This document shows positions 14,697 to 24,704 of a stretch of DNA of 33,714 bases, in pieces. The position numbers and the translations under genes are program-made. The stretch is from Flavobacteriaceae bacterium CG_4_10_14_3_um_filter_33_47. GTDB lineage: Bacteria > Bacteroidota > Bacteroidia > Flavobacteriales > Flavobacteriaceae. The stretch is taken from contig PFKE01000078.1 in the NCBI GenBank assembly GCA_002784145.1, forward strand, positions 1 to 33,714, written 5' to 3'. The number at the start of each line of letters is the position of its first letter. The stretch's first letter is position 1. Below the pieces are notes generated by a model. That model saw only the letters and a list, made by a program, of their open reading frames with translations. It did not search any database and was not told the origin of the DNA.

Positions 14697-16046
14697 ATGA
14701 AAATAATTATTGCTGGAGCAGGTGAAGTAGGGTTTCACTTAGCAAAGCTTTTATCATACGAATCTCAGGAAATAACCTTAATTGATCCCAAGAAAGACAG
14801 TTTGGTATATGCAGATACTCATCTTGATATAAAGGTTTTAAAAGGAGATGCTACATCTATTAGGCTATTAACCGAAGCTAAGGTTGATAATACAGAATTA
14901 TTTATTGCTGTTACTTCGTCTCAATCAACCAATATAACAGCCTGTGTATTAGCTAAAGAACTTGGAGCCAAAAAAACAATTGCCAGAATTTCAAATACCG
15001 AATTTATTGATTATAAAAGCAAAGTTGGCTTTACAAAATTTGGGATTGACGAGTTAATATCGCCAGAATCTCTGGCAGCAAAAGAGATAGAATTACTTTT
15101 AAATCAATCGGTTTTTAATGATACTTATGAGTTTGAAAATGGTGCATTGACCATGCTTGGTTTAAACTTAAAAAAAACGGCTAAAATTGTTGGTAAATCT
15201 ATTAAAGAAGCTGCTCAAATTATTCCTGACATACATTTTGTTCCTATTGCCATTCAACGTTATGGTTCTCATTTAACCATTATACCTAGAGGAGATACGA
15301 TGTTGAATGAAGGCGATCATGTAGTTTTTATTACTTCCAAAGGTGGAGACTCAGAATTATGTAAGTTAGCGGGTTTATTTAAGGCTGAAATTAAGAATGT
15401 CATGATTTTAGGTGGAGGAAGAATTGGGCGAAAAACAGCTAAGAGTTTAACAGAAGGCAAGTTTAACATTAAAATTATTGAGCACGATAAAGAAAGGGCT
15501 CTTGAACTTGCCGATAGGTTACCAAATACCTTAGTGATTAATGGCGATGGAAGAAATGTAGAACTACTAGAAGAAGAAAATATAGGTGATATGGATGCTT
15601 TTATTGCCGTTACAGGAAATTCTGAAACCAATATTATATCGAGTTTAGTGGCTAAAAACAGAGGTGTTAAAAAAACCATAGCTTTGGTTGAAAATATGGA
15701 TTATTTTGAGTTATCACATTCCATTGGTATTGATACTTTGATTAACAAGAAACTTCTTGCGGCCAATAGTATTTTTAGATACATAAGAAGAGGTAATGTG
15801 GTTGCCATGACTAAACTTAACAGTATGAATGCTGAGCTTTTGGAGTTTGTTGTAAATTCCAATTCTAAAATTTGCAATAAACTTATTAAAGATCTTGATT
15901 TCCCTTTAACAGCAATTATTGGCGGTGTTATTAGGGAGAATGAGGGTATGGTTGCTCTTGGAAATTTCAAAGTGTTGGCCGGAGATAAGGTTGTAGTATG
16001 TTGTTTGCCGCAATCTATTAATAAAATTGAAGGTTTTTTCTTTTAG
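14697..16046 (+). CDS. trkA: Trk potassium transporter, NAD-binding regulatory subunit
   Basis: A 449-residue peripheral membrane protein that gates the TrkH potassium channel in response to nucleotides. It has the doubled architecture of TrkA: RCK_N with GAGEVG (7-12) and the acidic end of strand 2 (LIDPKKD), RCK_C to about 225, then a second RCK_N with GGGRIG (239-244) and IIEHDKERA, and a second RCK_C. Full length compared with the family. trkH follows 12 bp later, an operon. Confidence 0.95.
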   Translation: MKIIIAGAGEVGFHLAKLLSYESQEITLIDPKKDSLVYADTHLDIKVLKGDATSIRLLTEAKVDNTELFIAVTSSQSTNITACVLAKELGAKKTIARISNTEFIDYKSKVGFTKFGIDELISPESLAAKEIELLLNQSVFNDTYEFENGALTMLGLNLKKTAKIVGKSIKEAAQIIPDIHFVPIAIQRYGSHLTIIPRGDTMLNEGDHVVFITSKGGDSELCKLAGLFKAEIKNVMILGGGRIGRKTAKSLTEGKFNIKIIEHDKERALELADRLPNTLVINGDGRNVELLEEENIGDMDAFIAVTGNSETNIISSLVAKNRGVKKTIALVENMDYFELSHSIGIDTLINKKLLAANSIFRYIRRGNVVAMTKLNSMNAELLEFVVNSNSKICNKLIKDLDFPLTAIIGGVIRENEGMVALGNFKVLAGDKVVVCCLPQSINKIEGFFF

Positions 16047-16058
16047 AAATAGTGTTTT

Positions 16059-17552
16059 GTGAAACTGAATTATAAAATTGTTTTTCATCTTTTTGGGCTT
16101 CTGTTATTATTTAATGGTGGCTTTATGCTAATCTCATCTCTTGTAAGTTTAATTTATAAAGATGGTGTTACCTTTCAATTATTTCTGGCAAGTCTAGTAA
16201 CCTTAGTCTTGGGTATTATTGTCATGGTTTATACCCGACGTCATTCTAAAGAAATGAACAAAAGAGAAGGGTATATTGTGGTTTCCTTTGGATGGATTAT
16301 CATGACCTTGTCTGGTACTTTGCCATACGTATTTACGGAAAGTATTCCAAGTTTCACCAATGCTTTCTTTGAAACCATGTCTGGTTATACCACGACTGGA
16401 GCTACGATTTTAAATGACATCGAAGCCTTACCTAAAGGCGTGTTGTTTTGGAGAAGTTTAACCCATTGGATAGGTGGCATGGGTATTATAGTTTTAGCCA
16501 TAGCCATCCTACCTTTATTAGGCATTGGAGGTATGCAGCTCTTTGCGGCTGAAGCTCCGGGGCCTAGCACCGATAAATTGCATCCAAGAATTACAGATAC
16601 CGCCAAGCGTTTATGGCTTATTTATTTTGGTTATACTGCTGCAGAAACTTTGTTTCTTAAACTTGCTGGGATGTCTTTTTTTGATGCTATAAATCATTCT
16701 ATGTCCACGTTGTCAACTGGAGGATTTTCCACAAAAAACGCAAGTGTTGCCTATTGGAATCATGAGCCTATGATTCAGTATATCATTATTCTGTTTATGT
16801 TTTTGGCTGGAACAAACTTTGTATTAAGTTATTTTGCTTTTAAAGGAAAAGTTCAAAAAATAATTCATGATGAAGAATTTAAATTATATTCTAAATTCAT
16901 CTTGATTTTTACAATAATAGCGGCTCTTATCATTTACTTCAGAGCAGATGTAACCATGTCTTCTATTAATCATCCTATGGTTTTGGGCGAAGCCGAAAGT
17001 GCGTTTAGACATGGGTTGTTTCAAGTGTTATCTGTGATTACAACCACTGGTTTTATTACGGCTGATTATACCATGTGGACATCATTTTTAGTGGTCTTTT
17101 TCTTTGGACTTATGTTTTTAGGAGGTTCAGCGGGTAGTACCTCTGGAGGTGTAAAAGTGGTGCGTCATTTACTGATGATTAAAAATGGTTTTTTAGAATT
17201 TAAACGTACGCTTCATCCAAACGCCATAATACCTGTTAGGTACAATACCAAGGCAGTTTCTGGCGATATTGTATTTAATATTTTGGCCTTTTTTATCCTA
17301 TATATGTTATCTTTCATTGTTGGTGCATTGGTATTTTCAATGTTTCATATTGATTTTAAATCTGCTGTTGGGCTTTCAGCATCTAGTTTAGGAAATATTG
17401 GGCCAGCACTTGGTAATTTTGGTCCCGTAAATAATTATGCGTCCTTACCCCTTTTAGCTCAATGGTGGGCATCTTTTTTAATGCTTATTGGACGTTTAGA
17501 ATTGTTTACAGTCCTAATTTTATTCACGCCTTTTTTCTGGAGGAATAGATAA
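16059..17552 (+). CDS. trkH: Trk potassium transporter, channel subunit
   Basis: A 497-residue integral membrane potassium-uptake subunit of the TrkH/KtrB superfamily. Four P-loop filters are recognisable: SGYTTTGATI (108-117), STLSTGGFS, SVITTTGFI and SSLGNIGPALG, each with the conserved glycine. Many hydrophobic helices surround them. It starts with GTG at 16059; no better ATG lies before the first helix, and MKLNYKIVFHLFGLLLLFNG fits the family N-terminus. The GTG start 12 bp after trkA suggests translational tuning within the operon. Confidence 0.94.
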   Translation: MKLNYKIVFHLFGLLLLFNGGFMLISSLVSLIYKDGVTFQLFLASLVTLVLGIIVMVYTRRHSKEMNKREGYIVVSFGWIIMTLSGTLPYVFTESIPSFTNAFFETMSGYTTTGATILNDIEALPKGVLFWRSLTHWIGGMGIIVLAIAILPLLGIGGMQLFAAEAPGPSTDKLHPRITDTAKRLWLIYFGYTAAETLFLKLAGMSFFDAINHSMSTLSTGGFSTKNASVAYWNHEPMIQYIIILFMFLAGTNFVLSYFAFKGKVQKIIHDEEFKLYSKFILIFTIIAALIIYFRADVTMSSINHPMVLGEAESAFRHGLFQVLSVITTTGFITADYTMWTSFLVVFFFGLMFLGGSAGSTSGGVKVVRHLLMIKNGFLEFKRTLHPNAIIPVRYNTKAVSGDIVFNILAFFILYMLSFIVGALVFSMFHIDFKSAVGLSASSLGNIGPALGNFGPVNNYASLPLLAQWWASFLMLIGRLELFTVLILFTPFFWRNR

Positions 17553-17713: not shown

Positions 17714-17971
17714 ATGGAATTAGTCGTAACAAGACAACATATAACAAGAGAATTTGAACCTAAAGTTGTTGAAAAATATATTAAACCAGAAGGGTTATTA
17801 AATTCAAATTATCAGTGTATTGCAAAGTCAAATTTAGAAAATGTTGAAGCCACTTCTATTTTTGGTATTAAGCAACGTATTAAAAGCTATCAATACAGCA
17901 CAACTTCAAGTATTGAAACCTTATTAAAAGTTGGTGTTTTTATGATACTCTATTTGGTGTTGTTTTCTTAA
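17714..17971 (+). CDS. Small protein with C-terminal membrane anchor, unknown function
   Basis: An 85-residue protein not recognised from any family. Residues 1-67 are hydrophilic and begin MELVVTRQHITREFEPKVVEK. The last 17 residues (VGVFMILYLVLFS) form one hydrophobic helix, so it is probably a tail-anchored inner-membrane protein. It opens the accessory block, has its own terminator at 18017-18050 and ATG at 17714. The spacing from trkH (161 bp) suggests an independent promoter, though I see no clear TAnnTTTG. Confidence 0.6.
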   Translation: MELVVTRQHITREFEPKVVEKYIKPEGLLNSNYQCIAKSNLENVEATSIFGIKQRIKSYQYSTTSSIETLLKVGVFMILYLVLFS

Positions 17972-18016: not shown

Positions 18017-18050
18017 TGTAAGCCACTAAATTTTAGTGGCTTACATTTTT
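18017..18050 (+). terminator. Terminator after the 85-residue gene
   Basis: Stem TGTAAGCCACT (18017-18027) / AGTGGCTTACA (18035-18045), loop AAATTTT, followed by a T run to about 18050. Confidence 0.8.
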
Positions 18051-18107
18051 TATATCAAAAAACCATTTATCGGCCAAACCTCCGGTAAATATTAAAAATC
18101 CCATTAA

Positions 18108-18167
18108 ATTCTGTAATAATTATCAAAAATTGTGTAATAAAAAAGGACACAAGCCAAACTACTTTTG
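18108..18167 (+). promoter_or_regulatory. Shared activator-type promoter, copy A
   Basis: A 30-bp block at 18108-18137 begins ATTCTGTAATAAT and ends TGTGTAA. It matches the block upstream of the gene at 22766 at 24 of 30 positions. TGTAA occurs twice, 21 bp apart (18112 and 18133). The core TACTTTTG is at 18160-18167, 22 nt after the block, with no TTG at -33. This is the pattern of a promoter needing an activator bound as a direct-repeat dimer on one helix face. Confidence 0.6.
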
Positions 18168-18217
18168 TATAAAAATTTAGAGTAGAGTTTTTTATTATAC
18201 AATTTATTTGAAAGATT

Positions 18218-18424
18218 ATGAATAAAACTTTAAAATCCATTCTGTTGGTAGTAGGTCTAGTTTTGTTGATCTATGGTGTTTACACCGTATTTGCTCCAGA
18301 AGCTTCATTAAGTATTGGCTCGCTAGATATTACAGCTCAAGATAATACCAATTCATACATCATGATTGGATTAGGGCTAGCATCTATTCTTATCAGTTTT
18401 ATTGGAGGTAAATATTTAAACTGA
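18218..18424 (+). CDS. Small two-helix membrane protein, DUF3185-like
   Basis: A 68-residue protein with two predicted transmembrane helices (about 6-27 and 46-63) joined by a short polar loop (APEASLSIGSLDITAQDNTN). The helix-loop-helix layout with LVVGLVLLIYGVY resembles DUF3185-type proteins, whose function is unknown. Its promoter shares a 30-bp element with that of the tiny membrane protein at 22766, so the two are likely induced together. Confidence 0.65.
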   Translation: MNKTLKSILLVVGLVLLIYGVYTVFAPEASLSIGSLDITAQDNTNSYIMIGLGLASILISFIGGKYLN

Positions 18425-18442
18425 TTTGTAATGAAAATTTAT

Positions 18443-18524
18443 ACTGTCTAAAGTTAATACAGTTCTTATATAATATAGTTGGTTGGTGAATTATGTATGG
18501 TATCAATCTTTAGGCAGTTTTTTT
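18443..18524 (+). terminator. Possible terminator or attenuator before the AI-2E family gene
   Basis: ACTGTCTAAAG (18443-18453) can pair with CTTTAGGCAGT (18508-18518, one G-U), followed by seven T. The loop is long (54 nt). The same left arm can also pair locally with ACAGT at 18459-18463, an alternative fold. The T run ends 13 bp before the start codon at 18538. Confidence 0.35.
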
Positions 18525-18537
18525 AATATTAAAATAG

Positions 18538-19656
18538 ATGTATTCAAAAAACCACATTACTCATAGTGCCTTAAGCCTTTTTTCACTTATTGCAGTGGTT
18601 TTTATATTATATGTTTTACAACCTTTTTTAGTTCCATTATTTTACGCTGTCATATTTAGCGTTATGATATTTCCTATTCAAAAATTTCTTGAAAAAAAAT
18701 GGAGATTTAACAGATTGTTAGCAACCATCTGCTCTTTAACTATCTTGATTTTTTTAACGGTATTGCTTGTGTTTTTAATTAGTACAAGGCTAGAAAATTT
18801 TATTGATAATAGTGAAGAATATTCCAAAAAGCTATCCGAGTTATTTCGCAAATCAATCAATTATTTTGAGAAATCATTTGGTGTTGGAAATAATAGAATT
18901 TTATCAGGGACTGATCTTAAAACAGAAAACATCATTAAAAACAACTTTGACAAAATTGGAGTGGTTATTTCTGAATCGGGAAGTATTTTAGGGAATCTGG
19001 TTTTAGTTCCTGTTTATATATTTTTCTTTCTATACTACAGGGTTTTTTTTAGAACATTTATATACAAAGTGTTTAATTCACACCCTAAAATATTTCTTAA
19101 TAATATTATAAATAAGATTTATCTAATTCAGCAAAATTATTTATTGGGCTTGCTTAAGGTCATCATCATTGTTGGATGTTTAAATAGTATTGGATTACTT
19201 TTGTTAGGCATTGGAGATCCTTTCTTTTTTGGCTTTTTAGGGGCTTTTTTATTGTTAATACCTTACATAGGCATTATTGTAGGATCATTATTGCCTGCAA
19301 TTATTGCTTTAGCAACCAAAGATTCTGCTTGGTATGCTTTTGGAGTTATAGGTGTTTTTGGATTTATACAATTTTTAGAAGGAAATTTTATTACGCCCAA
19401 AATTACTGGATCAAAAGTAAGTATCAATCCTTTTATTGCCATTACATCTCTTTTGTTGTTTTCCATGCTTTGGGGAATATCAGGAATGGTTTTGGCATTA
19501 CCCGTTGTTGCCACGTTAAAAATATTATTTGATCATACTCCAGGCTATGAAGCATATGGGTTTTTAATTGGAGAATCTTTAGATAAGTATTTACAAAGCA
19601 GATCAAAACAACGTTTAAAAAAATGGGAAAAAATTAGAAAAATGAAACACGAATAA
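18538..19656 (+). CDS. AI-2E family transporter (PF01594-type permease)
   Basis: A 372-residue inner-membrane protein with about seven to eight hydrophobic helices and a polar segment (about 84-145) after the first pair. The family signature region is present: LIPYIGIIVGSLLPAIIALA, then FGFIQFLEGNFITPKITGSKVSINPF and the final ISGMVLALPVVATLKILFD. Members include TqsA, linked to autoinducer-2 export, and Na+/H+ antiporters, so substrate is not predictable. The basic C-terminal tail (KQRLKKWEKIRKMK) is cytoplasmic. It lies in the accessory block downstream of the DUF3185-like gene. Confidence 0.88.
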   Translation: MYSKNHITHSALSLFSLIAVVFILYVLQPFLVPLFYAVIFSVMIFPIQKFLEKKWRFNRLLATICSLTILIFLTVLLVFLISTRLENFIDNSEEYSKKLSELFRKSINYFEKSFGVGNNRILSGTDLKTENIIKNNFDKIGVVISESGSILGNLVLVPVYIFFFLYYRVFFRTFIYKVFNSHPKIFLNNIINKIYLIQQNYLLGLLKVIIIVGCLNSIGLLLLGIGDPFFFGFLGAFLLLIPYIGIIVGSLLPAIIALATKDSAWYAFGVIGVFGFIQFLEGNFITPKITGSKVSINPFIAITSLLLFSMLWGISGMVLALPVVATLKILFDHTPGYEAYGFLIGESLDKYLQSRSKQRLKKWEKIRKMKHE

Positions 19657-19778
19657 TTAGACATATCCTTTATTAGGTTTGTATTAATCTAGTTATATAA
19701 CAAATAAAAAGGCTTTTATACAAAATCCTTCACTACCTTTACTTGTTAGCCTTTTAATAAAAGTCAACATATTTTTAT

Positions 19779-20345
19779 ATGAAACTATTCTTGAAATTTG
19801 ATTTTAACACACTCAGTAAAAAAGTATTGGAGTCTAAGTTAGATGAGCAAAACTTGGAATACAAAATCCTAGGTTTTGGCGAGATAGAGCTTATAAAAAA
19901 ACTAACTCCTGAAGATTACGATGCTTTACAAAGTTCTTTACATGACTATGGTATTGAAATAGTTGAAAGTCAGAAAAGTATTTTAGTTCAAAAAATTAAA
20001 GATATGATCATCAATATGGTTTTTAATGAAAATATCGATTTAAAAGTAAAAAGTTCGGTGTATTTATCTAAAAATATAGGGCACAGTTATGGATATCTTT
20101 CTAATTTGTTTTCAGAAATGACCTATTCATCCATTGGAAATTTTATCATCATTCAAAAAATAGAATATGTAAAACATCTCATTTTAAATACAGAATTAAA
20201 TTTAACCGAAATAGCTTTCAAACTTAACTATTCCAGCGTTGCACACTTAAGTACTCAGTTTAAAAATGCTACAGGTATCACGCCTTCTGCTTTTCAGCGT
20301 ATTATTTTTAAAAGAAGGAAACTTGCAAAGCAAAAAACAAAATAA
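19779..20345 (+). CDS. AraC-family transcriptional regulator
   Basis: A 188-residue regulator. The N-terminal part (1-60) has the strand-helix-strand pattern of a small ferredoxin-like domain (MKLFLKFDFNTLSKKVLESK), as in a common Bacteroidota AraC family. The C-terminal part (about 85-180) is an AraC double helix-turn-helix, with the second unit LTEIAFKLNYSSVAHLSTQF and the family motif GITPSAFQ. The tail is very basic (FKRRKLAKQK). Only 15 bp separate it from the response regulator, so AraC, regulator and kinase form one operon. A TAGGTTTG core lies at 19674-19681, about 98 bp upstream. A reasonable candidate for the activator of the shared promoters (inference). Confidence 0.85.
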   Translation: MKLFLKFDFNTLSKKVLESKLDEQNLEYKILGFGEIELIKKLTPEDYDALQSSLHDYGIEIVESQKSILVQKIKDMIINMVFNENIDLKVKSSVYLSKNIGHSYGYLSNLFSEMTYSSIGNFIIIQKIEYVKHLILNTELNLTEIAFKLNYSSVAHLSTQFKNATGITPSAFQRIIFKRRKLAKQKTK

Positions 20346-20360
20346 ATTTATTAAAAAGGT

Positions 20361-20807
20361 ATGCAAAAAGATTATATCTATATAATTCTAGCTGATGATG
20401 ATGAAGATGACATTCTTTTTTTTACGGATGCTTTTGATGAATTAAAAATCAACACCAAAGTTAATTCGTTTAAAGATGGTGAAGAGCTTATGAATTATTT
20501 AAATAAAGATAATGCCCTTATGCCTAACGTTCTGTTTCTGGATTTAAATATGCCAAAAAAAACTGGAATAGAATGTTTGGCAGAGATTAAGGCTAGCCAG
20601 AAAATGTCTGATATTGCCATAGCCATTTATTCTACATCTGCTTCAGATGATGATATTGAAAAAACCTTTGTATTGGGCGCAAATATTTATATAAAAAAAC
20701 CGAGCGACTTTAAAAAACTTAAAAAAGTACTTTCAGAAGTTGTTGCCATTAATTGGCAATACCATACCAACGCCTTAAATAAAGACAACTTTTTATTGCG
20801 GCTATAA
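20361..20807 (+). CDS. Single-domain response regulator (CheY/Rcp1-like)
   Basis: A 148-residue receiver domain with no output domain. The acidic pocket is DDDED (12-16), the phospho-acceptor D61 is in LFLDLNMPKKTG, the switch Ser/Thr is around 91 in IYSTSAS and the conserved Lys113 is in IKKPSD. The FLDLNMPKKTG pattern is that of Rcp1-type receivers paired with hybrid-free kinases. Its stop codon overlaps the kinase start by one base (TAATG), so translation is coupled. It probably passes its signal by protein contact, for example to the AraC protein encoded just upstream. Confidence 0.93.
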   Translation: MQKDYIYIILADDDEDDILFFTDAFDELKINTKVNSFKDGEELMNYLNKDNALMPNVLFLDLNMPKKTGIECLAEIKASQKMSDIAIAIYSTSASDDDIEKTFVLGANIYIKKPSDFKKLKKVLSEVVAINWQYHTNALNKDNFLLRL

Positions 20808-22594
20808 TGATCATGAACAATTGGTTTAAATCGACATTATTTTTAAAAATCATTCTTTTATTAAGTTTGTTTGTCATTCTAGTTATAGGTGGCCTTACTT
20901 TCAGACATATTTCTAATTTAACAAGTTCTACAGAAGTTGTTGTTAAAACCTATAAAGTTAATTTAGAGTTAGAACAAATAATCTCATATTTAAGAGATGC
21001 TGAAAGTGGATATAGAAATTATATAGTCACCAAAGATACTTTTTATATAGAGTCTTATTTAAATGCACATAAAAAAGTCAACAATTCTTTCCTAAACCTA
21101 AGAAATCTCATTAAAGTAAATTCAGAGCAACAGGAAAACTTAAAGATTTTAAATAAATTAACCGATAGCCTTTTTTCAAGTTTCGCTGAATCTAAAGTGT
21201 TTGTTAAGAATGATGAAACAAATACCGAAACATTCAAAACTCTTTTTTTTAAAGAAAAAGTAATCATTGACAGTATCAGACGCCAGTCTATGGTTATGTT
21301 TCAATTAGAAAATAAACTGCTTAATGAGCGTCAAAAGGAATTTCAAAGCGATTTAAAATTTACGCCATTATTTTTTTATGTTGTGTTACTAATCATGCTT
21401 TTACTCATTATCATTGCATATACAAAGATTAGCAACAACCTAAAAAACATCAAAGCAAAAAATGACCAATTATTAATCTTTAAAGAATCTACAAACCAAT
21501 CCGAAATTATTGGTAAACATGGTAATTGGGTTTGGCATATAGATTCTGATAAGTATGTCTATTCAGACAATCTATATCGGCTTTTAGGTGAAGAACCCCA
21601 ATCGTTTGAAGCTACTTTTGATAATTTTTTAAAATTTGTTCATCCTGATGATGTGGGTAAATTAGCGGAAGATTTAGATAAAATGATTGATGTAGAAGAG
21701 TTGCCCTTTACAAACTATAGAATTATTCAAAAAAACGGTACAATAAAATATCTTAAAGCTTATGCAAAATCTTTTTATAGTGATAGTGGACAAAAACGAC
21801 TGCTAGGTAATACCAGTGATGTTACCGATGAGATTAAAAGTATTTTAACCCTTGAAGAACGTAATTTAGAATTAGAACAAAATAACAAAGAGCTTTCTGC
21901 TTTTAATTATGCAGCTAGTCATGATTTGCAAGAGCCTTTACGAAAAATACTGACCTTTATTTCTAGGCTAGAAGAAAAGGAAAGCAATAACTTTTCAGAT
22001 ACAGGACAGCAATATTTAGAACACATTAAAGCTGCAGCTTCAAGAATGCGTTTATTAATAGATGATTTACTTCAATTTTCAAGAACAAATAAACCCGACA
22101 AAGAGTTTGTTAATGCAGATTTAAATGAGCTTTTTGAAAATGCCAAACAAGATTTAACTGTAATTATTTCAGAGAAAAAGGCGCAAATCAAAATTGCTAC
22201 CTTGCCAAAAGCAACGGTTATAGATTTTCAGATACAGCAATTGTTTTTGAATTTATTGAGCAATTCTTTAAAATATAGTAAAGAAGAAACGGCGCCAATT
22301 ATTAAAATATATTATTCTAAAGTGGAAGCGGATAAGGAGCCTATTTTATATAAAGCTCCACAAAGCCATTACCATAAAATTACTTTTACCGATAATGGTA
22401 TTGGTTTTGACCAAAAATATGCCAAAAAAATATTTGACCTATTTAATAGACTGCACAACAAGCAGGACTATTCTGGTACAGGCATAGGGTTATCCATATG
22501 TAAAAAAATTATTCAAAACCATAAAGGGTTTATTTTTGCCAATGGCGAGATTAATGTTGGCTCTGTTTTTACCATATATCTTCCAGTTAATTAA
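20807..22594 (+). CDS. CHASE3/PAS sensor histidine kinase
   Basis: A 595-residue membrane kinase. Two helices (about 12-30 and 186-206) enclose a CHASE3-like periplasmic helical domain (38-180, with ESGYRNYIVT near 66-75). A PAS domain with PAC follows (about 232-345, GNWVWHIDSDKYVYSDNLYR), then a coiled coil, the HisKA H-box with H372 in ASHDLQEPLRK, and the HATPase domain: N-box LNLLSNSLKYS (481-491), G1 DNGIGF (529-534) and G2 GTGIGL (557-562). Architecture is like the Cph1/Rcp1-type CHASE3 kinases of Bacteroidota. The ligand is unknown. Coupled to the response regulator. Confidence 0.93.
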   Translation: MIMNNWFKSTLFLKIILLLSLFVILVIGGLTFRHISNLTSSTEVVVKTYKVNLELEQIISYLRDAESGYRNYIVTKDTFYIESYLNAHKKVNNSFLNLRNLIKVNSEQQENLKILNKLTDSLFSSFAESKVFVKNDETNTETFKTLFFKEKVIIDSIRRQSMVMFQLENKLLNERQKEFQSDLKFTPLFFYVVLLIMLLLIIIAYTKISNNLKNIKAKNDQLLIFKESTNQSEIIGKHGNWVWHIDSDKYVYSDNLYRLLGEEPQSFEATFDNFLKFVHPDDVGKLAEDLDKMIDVEELPFTNYRIIQKNGTIKYLKAYAKSFYSDSGQKRLLGNTSDVTDEIKSILTLEERNLELEQNNKELSAFNYAASHDLQEPLRKILTFISRLEEKESNNFSDTGQQYLEHIKAAASRMRLLIDDLLQFSRTNKPDKEFVNADLNELFENAKQDLTVIISEKKAQIKIATLPKATVIDFQIQQLFLNLLSNSLKYSKEETAPIIKIYYSKVEADKEPILYKAPQSHYHKITFTDNGIGFDQKYAKKIFDLFNRLHNKQDYSGTGIGLSICKKIIQNHKGFIFANGEINVGSVFTIYLPVN

Positions 22595-22670
22595 AATTAT
22601 ACTTCACATACCTTTTTTTAAGCATGTCAAAACTCCTTCGGACAATTTTTAAAACTAGTTTAATATAGAA

Positions 22671-22730
22671 ATTCTGTAACAATCACTAAAAATGATGTAA
22701 AAGTTAAGAGCCAATGGGGTTGTAACTTTG
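22671..22730 (+). promoter_or_regulatory. Shared activator-type promoter, copy B
   Basis: The block 22671-22700 (ATTCTGTAACAATCA to TGATGTAA) matches copy A at 18108. TGTAA repeats are at 22675 and 22696, 21 bp apart. The core TAACTTTG is at 22723-22730, with the same offset of 52 bp from the block start as in copy A. No TTG sits at -33. It drives the small gene at 22766 and probably the genes after it. Confidence 0.6.
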
Positions 22731-22765: not shown

Positions 22766-22918
22766 ATGAGAAGTTTATTATATCTAGTAGCTGTTATACT
22801 TATTATAGGATGGGCTTTAGGGTTCTTTGTTTACAGTGCAGGATCCATAATCCATATTTTATTAGTCATTGCGGTCATTGCAATATTGTTAAGACTTATT
22901 GGTGGAAAAGGGTTGTGA
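22766..22918 (+). CDS. 50-residue membrane peptide, DUF5670/lmo0937-like
   Basis: A very short gene (50 codons) with ATG at 22766 and TGA at 22916-22918. It encodes two hydrophobic helices separated by a short turn (VYSAGSIIH), ending in LLRLIGGKGL, the pattern of the lmo0937/DUF5670 family of stress-linked small membrane proteins. The function of that family is unknown. It has a dedicated promoter matching that of 18218, and the YtxH gene begins 77 bp downstream. Confidence 0.8.
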   Translation: MRSLLYLVAVILIIGWALGFFVYSAGSIIHILLVIAVIAILLRLIGGKGL

Positions 22919-22995: not shown

Positions 22996-23256
22996 ATGAA
23001 ATCAAATGTATTAGGTATTGTTGCAGGATTAGCAGCAGGAGCCTTGTTAGGAGTGCTTTTTGCACCAGATAAAGGATCAAAAACAAGAAAAAAAATTAAA
23101 ACTAAAACAAGCAAATTAAAAAATGATTTAAAGGATGAGTTTGATAGTTTTTTAGATACTGCCTCAAAAAAATATAATTCCATAGTAGACAAAGGGGAAG
23201 ACATACTTGAAACGGAAAAAGGAAAAATAAAGGACACCATTAATTCTAAAAATTAA
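22996..23256 (+). CDS. YtxH-domain protein
   Basis: An 86-residue protein with the family signature at the N-terminus: a glycine-rich membrane helix followed by a short FAPDKGSKTRKKI motif (residues 5-35), then a charged amphipathic helix rich in Lys and Asp. YtxH proteins are associated with general stress responses and membrane association; the exact role is unknown. Followed after 11 bp by the holin-like gene. Confidence 0.85.
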   Translation: MKSNVLGIVAGLAAGALLGVLFAPDKGSKTRKKIKTKTSKLKNDLKDEFDSFLDTASKKYNSIVDKGEDILETEKGKIKDTINSKN

Positions 23257-23267
23257 AAACCAATTCT

Positions 23268-23669
23268 GTGGAAAATACAGCTACAAGCGTAGAAATGCTT
23301 TTTGAAAAAGCAAAAAAGTATTCAGAAACCAGTTTAGATTTGCTTGCGTTAAATGCTGTAGATAAAACTGGAGATGTGCTTTCTTCCTTAGCATCAAGGG
23401 TTTTTATTGCTATGGCTGTTGCCATGTTTACCTTGTTTTTTAATATAGGAATTAGCTTGGTTATTGGTAAGTTATTACACGAATATTATCTAGGTTTTTT
23501 AATAGTGTCTGCTTTTTATTTGATAACAGCAACTGTATTGTGGTTATTTAAAGCTAAACTTATTGAAACGCCAATAGACAACATGATTGTTGCCAAATTA
23601 TTAAAATCTAGGAGAACTGGGATTAACCTTTTAGACAAATTTAAAGAGAAAAATAATGGCACCATCTAA
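23268..23669 (+). CDS. Holin-like (phage holin/DUF-type) membrane protein
   Basis: A 133-residue protein with a GTG start (23268). The first 43 residues are hydrophilic and helical, then two membrane helices (about 44-68 and 73-96) and a basic C-terminus (KSRRTGINLLDKFKEKNNG). The layout is that of the Actinobacterial holin-X-like proteins found beside YtxH genes in Bacteroidota. A role in lysis is unlikely, since no endolysin is present. It overlaps the next gene by 14 bp. Confidence 0.7.
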   Translation: MENTATSVEMLFEKAKKYSETSLDLLALNAVDKTGDVLSSLASRVFIAMAVAMFTLFFNIGISLVIGKLLHEYYLGFLIVSAFYLITATVLWLFKAKLIETPIDNMIVAKLLKSRRTGINLLDKFKEKNNGTI

Positions 23670-24009
23670 AAATCAAATACAATCTTTAGATAAAGCGATA
23701 AGTTTATTGGAAAGTCAAAAAAGAATCGAATTTATTGATTTAAAGAATCAATTTTTTAAAACGAGAGAACATTTCAGACCACTTAATTTATTAAATGAAA
23801 CCATTAAAGATTTTGGCGAATCACCAGTAATTAAAGCCAATCTTTTTGAAACGATAATCAGTATTACTGGAGGTTATTTTTCAAAAAAACTAATCATAGG
23901 CAAATCAAATTCCTTTATAAAAAATTTGCTGGGATATGTTTTGCAGTTTGGTGTAACAAATTTCATTTCAAAAAAAGTCAGTTCAGATACTGATAACCAA
24001 AGTAAATAA
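23656..24009 (+). CDS. Conserved small protein of the YtxH cluster, unknown function
   Basis: A 117-residue protein whose start overlaps the holin-like gene by 14 bp, implying coupled translation. Sequence features are a Lys/Gln-rich N-terminal half (LLESQKRIEFIDLKNQFFKT) and a moderately hydrophobic stretch around 76-104 (GGYFSKKLIIGKSNSF, LLGYVLQFGVTNFISKK). No family could be assigned with confidence. It probably acts with its two upstream neighbours. Confidence 0.65.
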   Translation: MAPSKNQIQSLDKAISLLESQKRIEFIDLKNQFFKTREHFRPLNLLNETIKDFGESPVIKANLFETIISITGGYFSKKLIIGKSNSFIKNLLGYVLQFGVTNFISKKVSSDTDNQSK

Positions 24010-24041: not shown

Positions 24042-24704
24042 ATGAAAACATTAAAATTAACATTAGCAATAGTTGCTTTTGCGGCAATATTTACCTCTTG
24101 TAAAGATACCCAAAAAGATGTAGCCCAAGAAAGAGTTGACAAGTATACAATGTATATTGATTCTGTAAGCAATGTAACTTCTGCTGAAGCAACTAAAAAT
24201 TGGAAAACCATTGAAAGTAATTATCAAAAAAATAAAGAAGAAGCAAACAACGCGATTGTTGACGTGAAAGAAAATACTGAAATGCAAGCATCTATCGATG
24301 AATCAACAGATCAGTTTTTGGTTTTTAAAGCAAAAGTCAAAGCAGAAACAGAAGCTATGCAAGCAGAAAATTTAAAGGTGATGATGAGGCAAACATTGTT
24401 AGGAACCGGTTTTGATAATAATGATATGAAATTTACCTGGATTCATAAAGATAATATTTTAAGTGTTTATCAAAATTTTGTTGACACGGTTGAAAAAAAC
24501 AAAGATTCATATTCAAGAGAAGATTGGGATGAAATCAAGTTATTGTATGAAGCTATTGATACCAGAAAAAATACCGTAGAAAATGAAGGTCTAACAAGCG
24601 AAGACAACAGAAAAATTGCTGGTTTAAAATTAAAATTTGCACCTATGTACACGTTTAATAGAATGGGAGCAAAATCTAGTGAAAACGCTGAAGCAAAAGA
24701 ATAA
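24042..24704 (+). CDS. Lipoprotein of unknown function
   Basis: A 220-residue lipoprotein with signal and lipobox AIFTSC (Cys20). The mature part is highly charged, mostly helical, with several Glu- and Lys-rich runs (AEATKNWKTIESNYQKNKEE), and ends in a small hydrophobic patch KFAPMYTFNRMGAK. I do not recognise the family. The location at the end of the membrane-stress cluster suggests an envelope role. Confidence 0.75.
   Translation: MKTLKLTLAIVAFAAIFTSCKDTQKDVAQERVDKYTMYIDSVSNVTSAEATKNWKTIESNYQKNKEEANNAIVDVKENTEMQASIDESTDQFLVFKAKVKAETEAMQAENLKVMMRQTLLGTGFDNNDMKFTWIHKDNILSVYQNFVDTVEKNKDSYSREDWDEIKLLYEAIDTRKNTVENEGLTSEDNRKIAGLKLKFAPMYTFNRMGAKSSENAEAKE

Follow-up and report, generated by a model that had tools for sequence, protein, structure and literature searches.

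Two promoter elements in a stretch of DNA from Flavobacteriaceae bacterium CG_4_10_14_3_um_filter_33_47 (GCA_002784145.1, contig PFKE01000078.1, positions 1-33,714 of the forward strand; the whole stretch of 33,714 nt is called the window below) are likely to be the operators of an AraC-type regulator that is encoded between them and would take its input from an adjoining kinase and receiver and activate small genes of the envelope and general stress response. The same element recurs across the phylum Bacteroidota beside AraC-type regulators and ahead of stress and metal-efflux genes, which points to a stress-control system that has not been described. Conservation, spacing, gene linkage, co-occurrence among genomes and domain make-up were observed directly, and from these we infer DNA binding, activation, contact between the receiver and the AraC protein, and a stress signal. 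The Bacteroidota have neither RpoS nor sigma-B, and how they coordinate general stress genes is, to our knowledge, an open question. Here, we put forward a concrete operator and the regulator family proposed to bind it, a candidate path for the signal, the promoters that would be its targets, and a search pattern with which regulon members can be sought in other Bacteroidota genomes.

The original prediction held that two blocks of the window (18108-18137 and 22671-22700) are identical at 24 of 30 positions, that each contains TGTAA twice at a distance of 21 bp and ends 22 nt before a TAnnTTTG core, and that neither promoter has a TTG at -33. All of this was recovered on recounting; the spacer of promoter 2 has a TTG at its end, immediately beside the core. 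The spacers had been described as not conserved and the genes behind them as unrelated, and indeed only 7 of 22 positions are shared between the 22-nt spacers, 9 of 30 in the upstream 30 nt, and no local alignment was obtained between the two downstream proteins. With spacers and upstream flanks this dissimilar, the block pair is not a plain duplication. The motif TGTAA-N16-TGTAA is not enriched in the window at up to one mismatch (6 found, 6.74 expected), its two exact occurrences being elements 1 and 2 (Table 1). When the core was added to the pair, three matches were found in the whole 2.94-Mb genome, two of them the window sites, and none in the mirrored control, while the 29-nt block at up to three mismatches occurs genome-wide only at the two window sites (one control match). 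A scan for promoters of the sigma-70 type gave no usable signal (47 found; shuffle mean 35.0, standard deviation 5.6).

A search worded as first proposed did yield matches in other genomes but proved too narrow, since of 249 genomes from the family only 8, the own genome among them, contain CTGTAA-N16-TGTAA-N20-24-TAnnTTTG. This sparse pattern was replaced, and of its other matches those in G071, G103 and G127 were followed (G denotes other genomes, L loci and C contigs of the own genome, which is G000). The general form of the element is AATNNTRTAA-N11-AATNNTGTAA-N22-TAnnTTTG, and the pattern used for searching was AATNNTRTAA-N11-AATNNTGTAA-N23-ANNTTTG. The latter was shaped after the orthologous loci had been read, so that those loci are not independent of it; the class-wide test reported below mostly is.

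Orthologous promoters, at which the prediction could be checked, were read in 18-kb stretches around 14 genes whose products rank among the closest relatives of the AraC protein (L046-L059). Both promoters keep the element in all four of these loci that have both target genes and the cassette (L046-L049), with 0 to 2 mismatches to the search pattern; half-sites and core are conserved there, and spacer and flanks vary. An extra small gene sits between element 2 and the DUF5670 gene in two of the four (L046, L048), and a further ortholog of the 68-aa protein behind an element was recognised by eye in L239. A site with at most two mismatches was found in 10 of 10 loci with an AraC gene of the window type (L046-L055), in one case (L053) 8.2 kb from that gene and on the opposite strand. 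The site precedes the AraC gene itself in L051 and L052 and lies 374 nt upstream of one in L151, which suggests self-control in those genomes.

Elsewhere in the own genome, a site on contig C84 (G000:C84:23007-23061, L001) combines one perfect half-site with a second that has one mismatch, at a 21-nt gap. The gene that starts 38 nt past it is lipoprotein-like, shares 57% identity with an element target in G304 (L380) and is related to a target in L134. The view that this match is due to chance was dropped after half-sites, gap and related targets had been checked, and the site is likely a real copy of the element. Two weaker sites with three mismatches (L320, L322) precede a lipocalin-like lipoprotein gene (C16:5220-5280) and a gene for a 185-aa exported-looking protein (C38:637-697). 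By-eye orthologs of the former in G251, G024 and G071, and of the latter in G251, G133 and G071, follow an element with 0 to 2 mismatches, the start in G071 lying 330 nt downstream in the latter case. As the own genome has 12 sites at up to three mismatches against 8 control matches, only this conservation supports the C16 and C38 sites.

The occurrence of the element was found to follow that of the regulator family. Among 60 genomes of the window's class, a site with at most one mismatch was present in 20 of the 31 that have the 188-aa AraC family (E 1e-40 or better) and in none of the 29 that do not (p = 2e-8). Leaving out G000, G257 and G298, which had shaped the pattern or the profile (the G298 site is that of L208), the counts become 17 of 28 against 0 of 29 (p = 2e-7); the p values are optimistic because related rows are not independent. 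The 60 class genomes contained 48 such sites against a single control match, and 29 genomes including the own one contained 66 sites at up to two mismatches against 7 control matches. An exact-pattern scan of GTDB species genomes returned at least 118 stretches of at most 8 kb each, of which 113 are Bacteroidota by record name, one of the five others carrying no phylum, and 30 of these at least 118 stretches hold a member of the small AraC family. One contig labelled Azovibrio restrictus (L192), possibly mis-binned, has an element followed by the beginning of a P-type ATPase-like gene that resembles those in loci from Bacteroidota. A set collected by the AraC gene comprised 60 loci with short flanks, 59 of them distinct (one G257 locus was in twice) and together 410 kb long. 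A site with at most two mismatches was found in 23 of the 60 (22 of 59 distinct), but in none of 60 reversed or 300 shuffled control sequences.

The spacing within the element is uniform. In the 59 distinct loci, 22 exact half-site pairs are 21 bp apart and a single pair has some other distance in the range of 10 to 40 bp, and the gap from repeat to core was 22 nt in 28 cases, 21 nt in five and 11 nt in one (none in mirrored controls). Base preferences were taken from 130 exact sites in named genomes, which also served for the target counts. At the pattern-free positions past the second half-site a C (55%) is followed by A or G (92%), a C is common just ahead of TTTG (63%), and the middle of the spacer is near random; the free first base of the core is T in 47% and C in 35%, AnnTTTG being fixed by the pattern. 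The first start codon lies within 60 nt of the core at 85 of 115 sites. Judged from the sequences, this is how a putative activator site would be built next to a promoter that lacks a -33 element.

The 65 members of the regulator family fall into three forms on the tree: CxxC (34 rows and one with an over-extended start, counted as CxxC), MVSxRC (10) and the form of the window (20). Three changes suffice to place the form labels on this tree, whereas shuffled labels need 26.4 on average. The metal-ligand pair of the CxxC branch is absent from the window regulator and its branch. The window protein matches HTH_18 (PF12833) with 52.6 bits against a curated cut-off of 33.6, which places it among the AraC/XylS proteins. 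Its predicted structure (mean predicted local distance difference test score 90.8) has a beta-alpha-beta-beta-alpha-beta N-terminal domain followed by an AraC-type helix-turn-helix (HTH), for which the closest folds in the model are AraC-type C-termini (AraT, 6swi: Z 14.4, root-mean-square deviation 2.8, 118 aligned). The HTH residues S152, S153, S158, Q160, F161 and K162 are invariant in the 31 rows of the modelling alignment, which fits a half-site common to the family. For the N-terminal domain, a profile of the family finds the metal domains of CopA and CopZ with E values of 2e-4 to 9e-3, no CopA stretch passing alone; the Pfam HMA cut-off is passed by one of ten members scanned, a CxxC one, and the window protein itself has no Pfam HMA match at a maximum E of 5. 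A fold search with the modelled domain returns both ACT and HMA domains and does not tell them apart, so that the HMA origin rests on the family profile and on the one member above the cut-off. In G291 and G304, which have one family member each, of the MVSxRC form, 12 and 8 sites are spread over several contigs; the regulator would therefore act in trans there.

A stand-alone receiver gene lies directly downstream of 19 of the 20 window-type genes, on the same strand and at -1 to 52 bp, and beside none of the 45 genes of the other two forms within the flanks covered (1.5 kb for many). A receiver in which Pfam finds no output domain should work through another protein, and the adjoining AraC protein is the obvious candidate for its partner. 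The original prediction had named the AraC protein at 19779 or a partner of the receiver at 20361 as possible activators, and this interpretation is supported. Gene neighbourhood and genome co-occurrence tie the AraC protein to the element, and gene position ties the receiver to the window form of the regulator; the wider family and its metal-type branch had been missed.

Sites had been expected ahead of stress-type small genes, and first genes are indeed often of the stress or metal-efflux type, though 89 of the 130 sites were classed as other by our own rules. Pfam was tallied for 113 of the 130 sites; at the rest, no complete open reading frame (ORF) of 40 aa or longer began within 400 nt, or the sequence contained unknown letters. 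The family counts come from the first 25 of 63 families. HMA was found at 14 first genes, P-type ATPase at 9, CsbD at 9, HTH_18 at 5, DUF5670 at 4 and YtxH and DUF2383 at 3 each, while Mn_catalase, DUF892, BON, DUF2202, the AI-2E transporter and others were found once each. In G127, 18 sites (none in the control; two inside long open frames) precede, among others, genes for lipocalin, L,D-transpeptidase (YkuD), DUF4142 and glycine-zipper proteins. In G071 a ferritin-family gene (Dps-like by eye) follows the element and is itself followed by a CsbD-like gene. Targets in G291 include CsbD, ferritin, a Crp-type regulator, a pyridoxal phosphate (PLP) decarboxylase and DUF326. Those in G304 include a CsbD-like protein (under the cut-off) and a protein that carries DUF5670, and those in G282 include CsbD and NDH2; several others in these three genomes are secreted or unlabelled. 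Ice-binding-like secreted proteins were also seen past two elements in G291 (L373), on the contig that holds the PLP decarboxylase and the Crp-type regulator. The gene lmo0937, which names the DUF5670-type family at NCBI, is sigma-B-dependent in Listeria according to two reports (PMC7690807, PMC2813243). Thirty-nine CsbD or DUF5670 loci were collected by gene, of which L254, L255, L259 and L285 were dropped at contig ends. A site with at most three mismatches within 700 bp was found in 9 of the 35 counted, against 0 of 70 control scans; these represent eight distinct sites (L265 and L274 share one), one of them in the window itself. Sites before the CsbD genes of the dropped loci L255 (G282) and L259 (G291) were found later, outside the 35-locus count.

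In the mechanism that we propose, an AraC dimer, or two monomers on one face of the DNA, would bind both AATNNTRTAA half-sites just upstream of the would-be -33 contact, and the bound protein would recruit housekeeping RNA polymerase to the TAnnTTTG core, a class II-type activation at a core without a -33 TTG. CxxC members, which often adjoin metal-efflux genes that have this element too, would sense metal and switch on efflux genes. The window branch would have lost the metal ligands and taken its input from the adjoining kinase and receiver, the signal passing from kinase to receiver to the N-terminal domain of the AraC protein and on to transcription of the targets, here the 68-aa membrane protein and the DUF5670-YtxH-holin-like operon. 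The activator is probably descended from a heavy-metal-domain regulator and now driven by its neighbours, a case of a metal-type domain apparently turned receiver-controlled while the operator geometry stayed fixed. A broader proposal, to which we give even chances, is that of a phylum-wide stress control that replaces a stress sigma factor in the Bacteroidota, in which an ancestral HMA-AraC protein and its operator split into a metal-responsive CxxC branch, a trans-acting MVSxRC branch with one cysteine and a kinase/receiver-rewired branch without the cysteine pair, the geometry of the operator before a housekeeping core being kept.

A number of observations weigh against this interpretation. 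Of the 31 class genomes with the AraC family, 11 have no site at one mismatch, and among the 18-kb loci of the other two forms (L056-L059) a site at up to two mismatches was found in L057 only (1 of 4). The strong sites of the own genome are the two of the window and the one on C84, ten more being found at exactly three mismatches against 8 in the control. G103 matches the narrow pattern yet has no family member at E 1e-20; it has no match to the general pattern either. Two loci of the MVSxRC form (L215, L245) encode a large protein of the kinase type close to the regulator, and the kinase link may thus not be limited to the window form. No site with at most three mismatches lies within 700 bp in 26 of the 35 CsbD or DUF5670 loci. 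Among 18 genomes with CsbD or DUF5670 genes, such a gene with a site occurs in 6 of 13 with a non-CxxC regulator (7 counting G291) against 0 of 5 without, a difference that is not significant (p = 0.11 or 0.10), and we do not claim a link between non-CxxC regulators and the element at these genes.

The element might instead be bound by another regulator, either an AraC-like type of 331-344 aa or a response regulator encoded elsewhere, the small AraC gene being a target or a neighbour. Genes of this longer type are the ones past the element in seven loci (L054, L055, L105, L121, L156, L204, L224), which counts against the small protein as the binder and suggests that they are either a rival for the element or regulators of a second tier. 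The seven products all resemble the window AraC protein, with E values of about 1e-6 or better, while that of an eighth candidate (L106) has no match to it. However, the small family is present in all 20 of the class genomes with a site, sites are missing from all 29 without it, and CxxC members share the element and adjoin their own targets, so we regard binding by another regulator as unlikely.

A little less probable still, in our estimate, is that the element is a copper or metal-response operator and that the window genes belong to an envelope metal-stress rather than a general-stress response. HMA and P-type ATPase proteins do form the biggest single class of first genes, and since the element is common to the CxxC regulators it is by itself no proof of a role in stress. 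However, where the locus holds a CxxC regulator, metal genes lie past the element at 10 of 17 sites, and where it holds one of the other two forms they do so at 0 of 17. These counts, from loci found by the motif, were made by locus, which means that site and regulator may be several kb apart, and the metal and stress labels were given by patterns of our own and by short phmmer queries rather than by Pfam for each protein. The window regulator has no cysteine pair, and CsbD, DUF5670, YtxH, ferritin and lipocalin are among the targets in genomes whose regulator has the window or MVSxRC form. In L123 and L124, CxxC regulators were observed beside a permease gene that follows an element, presumably of the SO_0444/ArsP-like type. 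That the similarity is a coincidence of AT-rich promoters with a common TAnnTTTG core is almost certainly wrong: one-mismatch TGTAA pairs do occur at chance frequency in the window, but it is contradicted by the conservation at orthologous promoters, the fixed spacing, the low control counts and the co-occurrence among genomes.

The operators proposed for the AraC-type regulator lie on either side of its gene (Table 1). The hairpin upstream of element 1 presumably separates it from the genes before, and a second hairpin with a T run lies 3' of the 68-aa gene, 11 of 200 shuffles folding equally well or better; transcription from element 1 may or may not continue past it into the AI-2E, AraC, receiver and kinase genes. 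An AI-2E-type gene is itself the first gene past an element in a Dokdonia locus (L240), YtxH-type genes stand directly past elements in L180, L184 and L249, and a protein similar by eye to the DUF6565 protein follows one in L200. As far as spacing can tell, the DUF5670, YtxH, Holin-X-like and 117-aa genes likely form one operon. The potassium uptake genes trkA-trkH (14697-17552) lie just upstream, as in the relatives L046 and L049, and in G071 (L060) trkAH is followed by the element with the ferritin-family gene and CsbD instead; a link to osmotic stress is possible. An 85-aa ORF (17714-17971) has a likely ortholog in the same place in L046 (69% identity).

Table 1. Elements, promoter cores and genes of the window
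Feature	Coordinates	Strand	Remarks
Intrinsic terminator-like hairpin	18017..18045	+	13 pairs; upstream of element 1
Element 1	18107..18137	+	Direct repeat of half-sites AATTCTGTAA (18107-18116) and AATTGTGTAA (18128-18137), 21 bp apart
Core promoter 1	18160..18167	+	TACTTTTG, TAnnTTTG type; begins 22 nt past element 1
68-aa small membrane protein	18218..18424	+	Target 1; Tetraspanin and AmaP matches, both under cut-off
AI-2E family transporter	18538..19656	+	Between target 1 and regulator
188-aa AraC-type regulator	19779..20345	+	N-terminal ferredoxin-like domain (HMA-related, no cysteine pair) and HTH_18; proposed binder of elements 1 and 2
148-aa stand-alone receiver	20361..20807	+	Response_reg (8-124) only; no output domain found
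595-aa sensor histidine kinase	20807..22594	+	CHASE3, PAS_3, HisKA, HATPase_c
Element 2	22670..22700	+	Half-sites AATTCTGTAA (22670-22679) and AATGATGTAA (22691-22700), 21 bp apart
Core promoter 2	22723..22730	+	TAACTTTG, TAnnTTTG type; begins 22 nt past element 2
50-aa DUF5670 / lmo0937-family membrane protein	22766..22918	+	Target 2; heads a likely operon (from spacing)
YtxH-like protein	22996..23256	+	Likely in the DUF5670 operon
Holin-X-like small membrane protein	23268..23669	+	Likely in the DUF5670 operon; Pfam match under cut-off
117-aa protein	23656..24009	+	No Pfam match; likely in the DUF5670 operon
DUF6565 protein	24042..24704	+	Membership of the DUF5670 operon uncertain

A literature search at the level of titles and abstracts, with most subscription papers outside its reach, returned no description of this combination of operator and regulon. 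For F. psychrophilum, a transcriptome study reports six sigma motifs, and its main text contains neither AraC nor TGTAA (PMC9723704). The window regulator resembles the AraC/XylS activators in its HTH_18 domain and in direct-repeat half-sites 21 bp apart beside a weak promoter, and differs from them in the HMA/ACT-like N-terminus, the Bacteroidota-type core and the proposed input from a stand-alone receiver. The I1-I2 half-sites of AraC are likewise spaced at 21 bp, and MarA and SoxS are known for class II sites. In the hybrid two-component systems (HTCS) known from Bacteroides, a histidine kinase, a receiver and an AraC-type HTH act in one pathway, as proposed here, and the sequence matches include a chain (12aw) that bears the name of such a system. 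However, an HTCS is a single polypeptide, whereas kinase, receiver and AraC protein are here encoded by three genes, the last with an extra domain of its own, and the 148-aa receiver differs from a classical response regulator in that Pfam finds no DNA-binding output domain in it. The target families overlap with those of the general-stress regulons of sigma-B in Firmicutes and RpoS in E. coli, CsbD, Dps, DUF892, BON and lipocalin genes being RpoS targets. In contrast to such regulons, the cores in the window are housekeeping TAnnTTTG cores, the proposed control is by an activator, and none of the ten proteins of the window cassette that were scanned is a sigma factor. HMA proteins of the CopZ and CopA type are related to the N-terminal domain by profile and fold, except that the window branch has no CxxC. 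Each part is of a known kind, and what appears to be new, within the reach of the literature search, is the combination of a Bacteroidota-wide operator, an HMA-related AraC family and stress targets.

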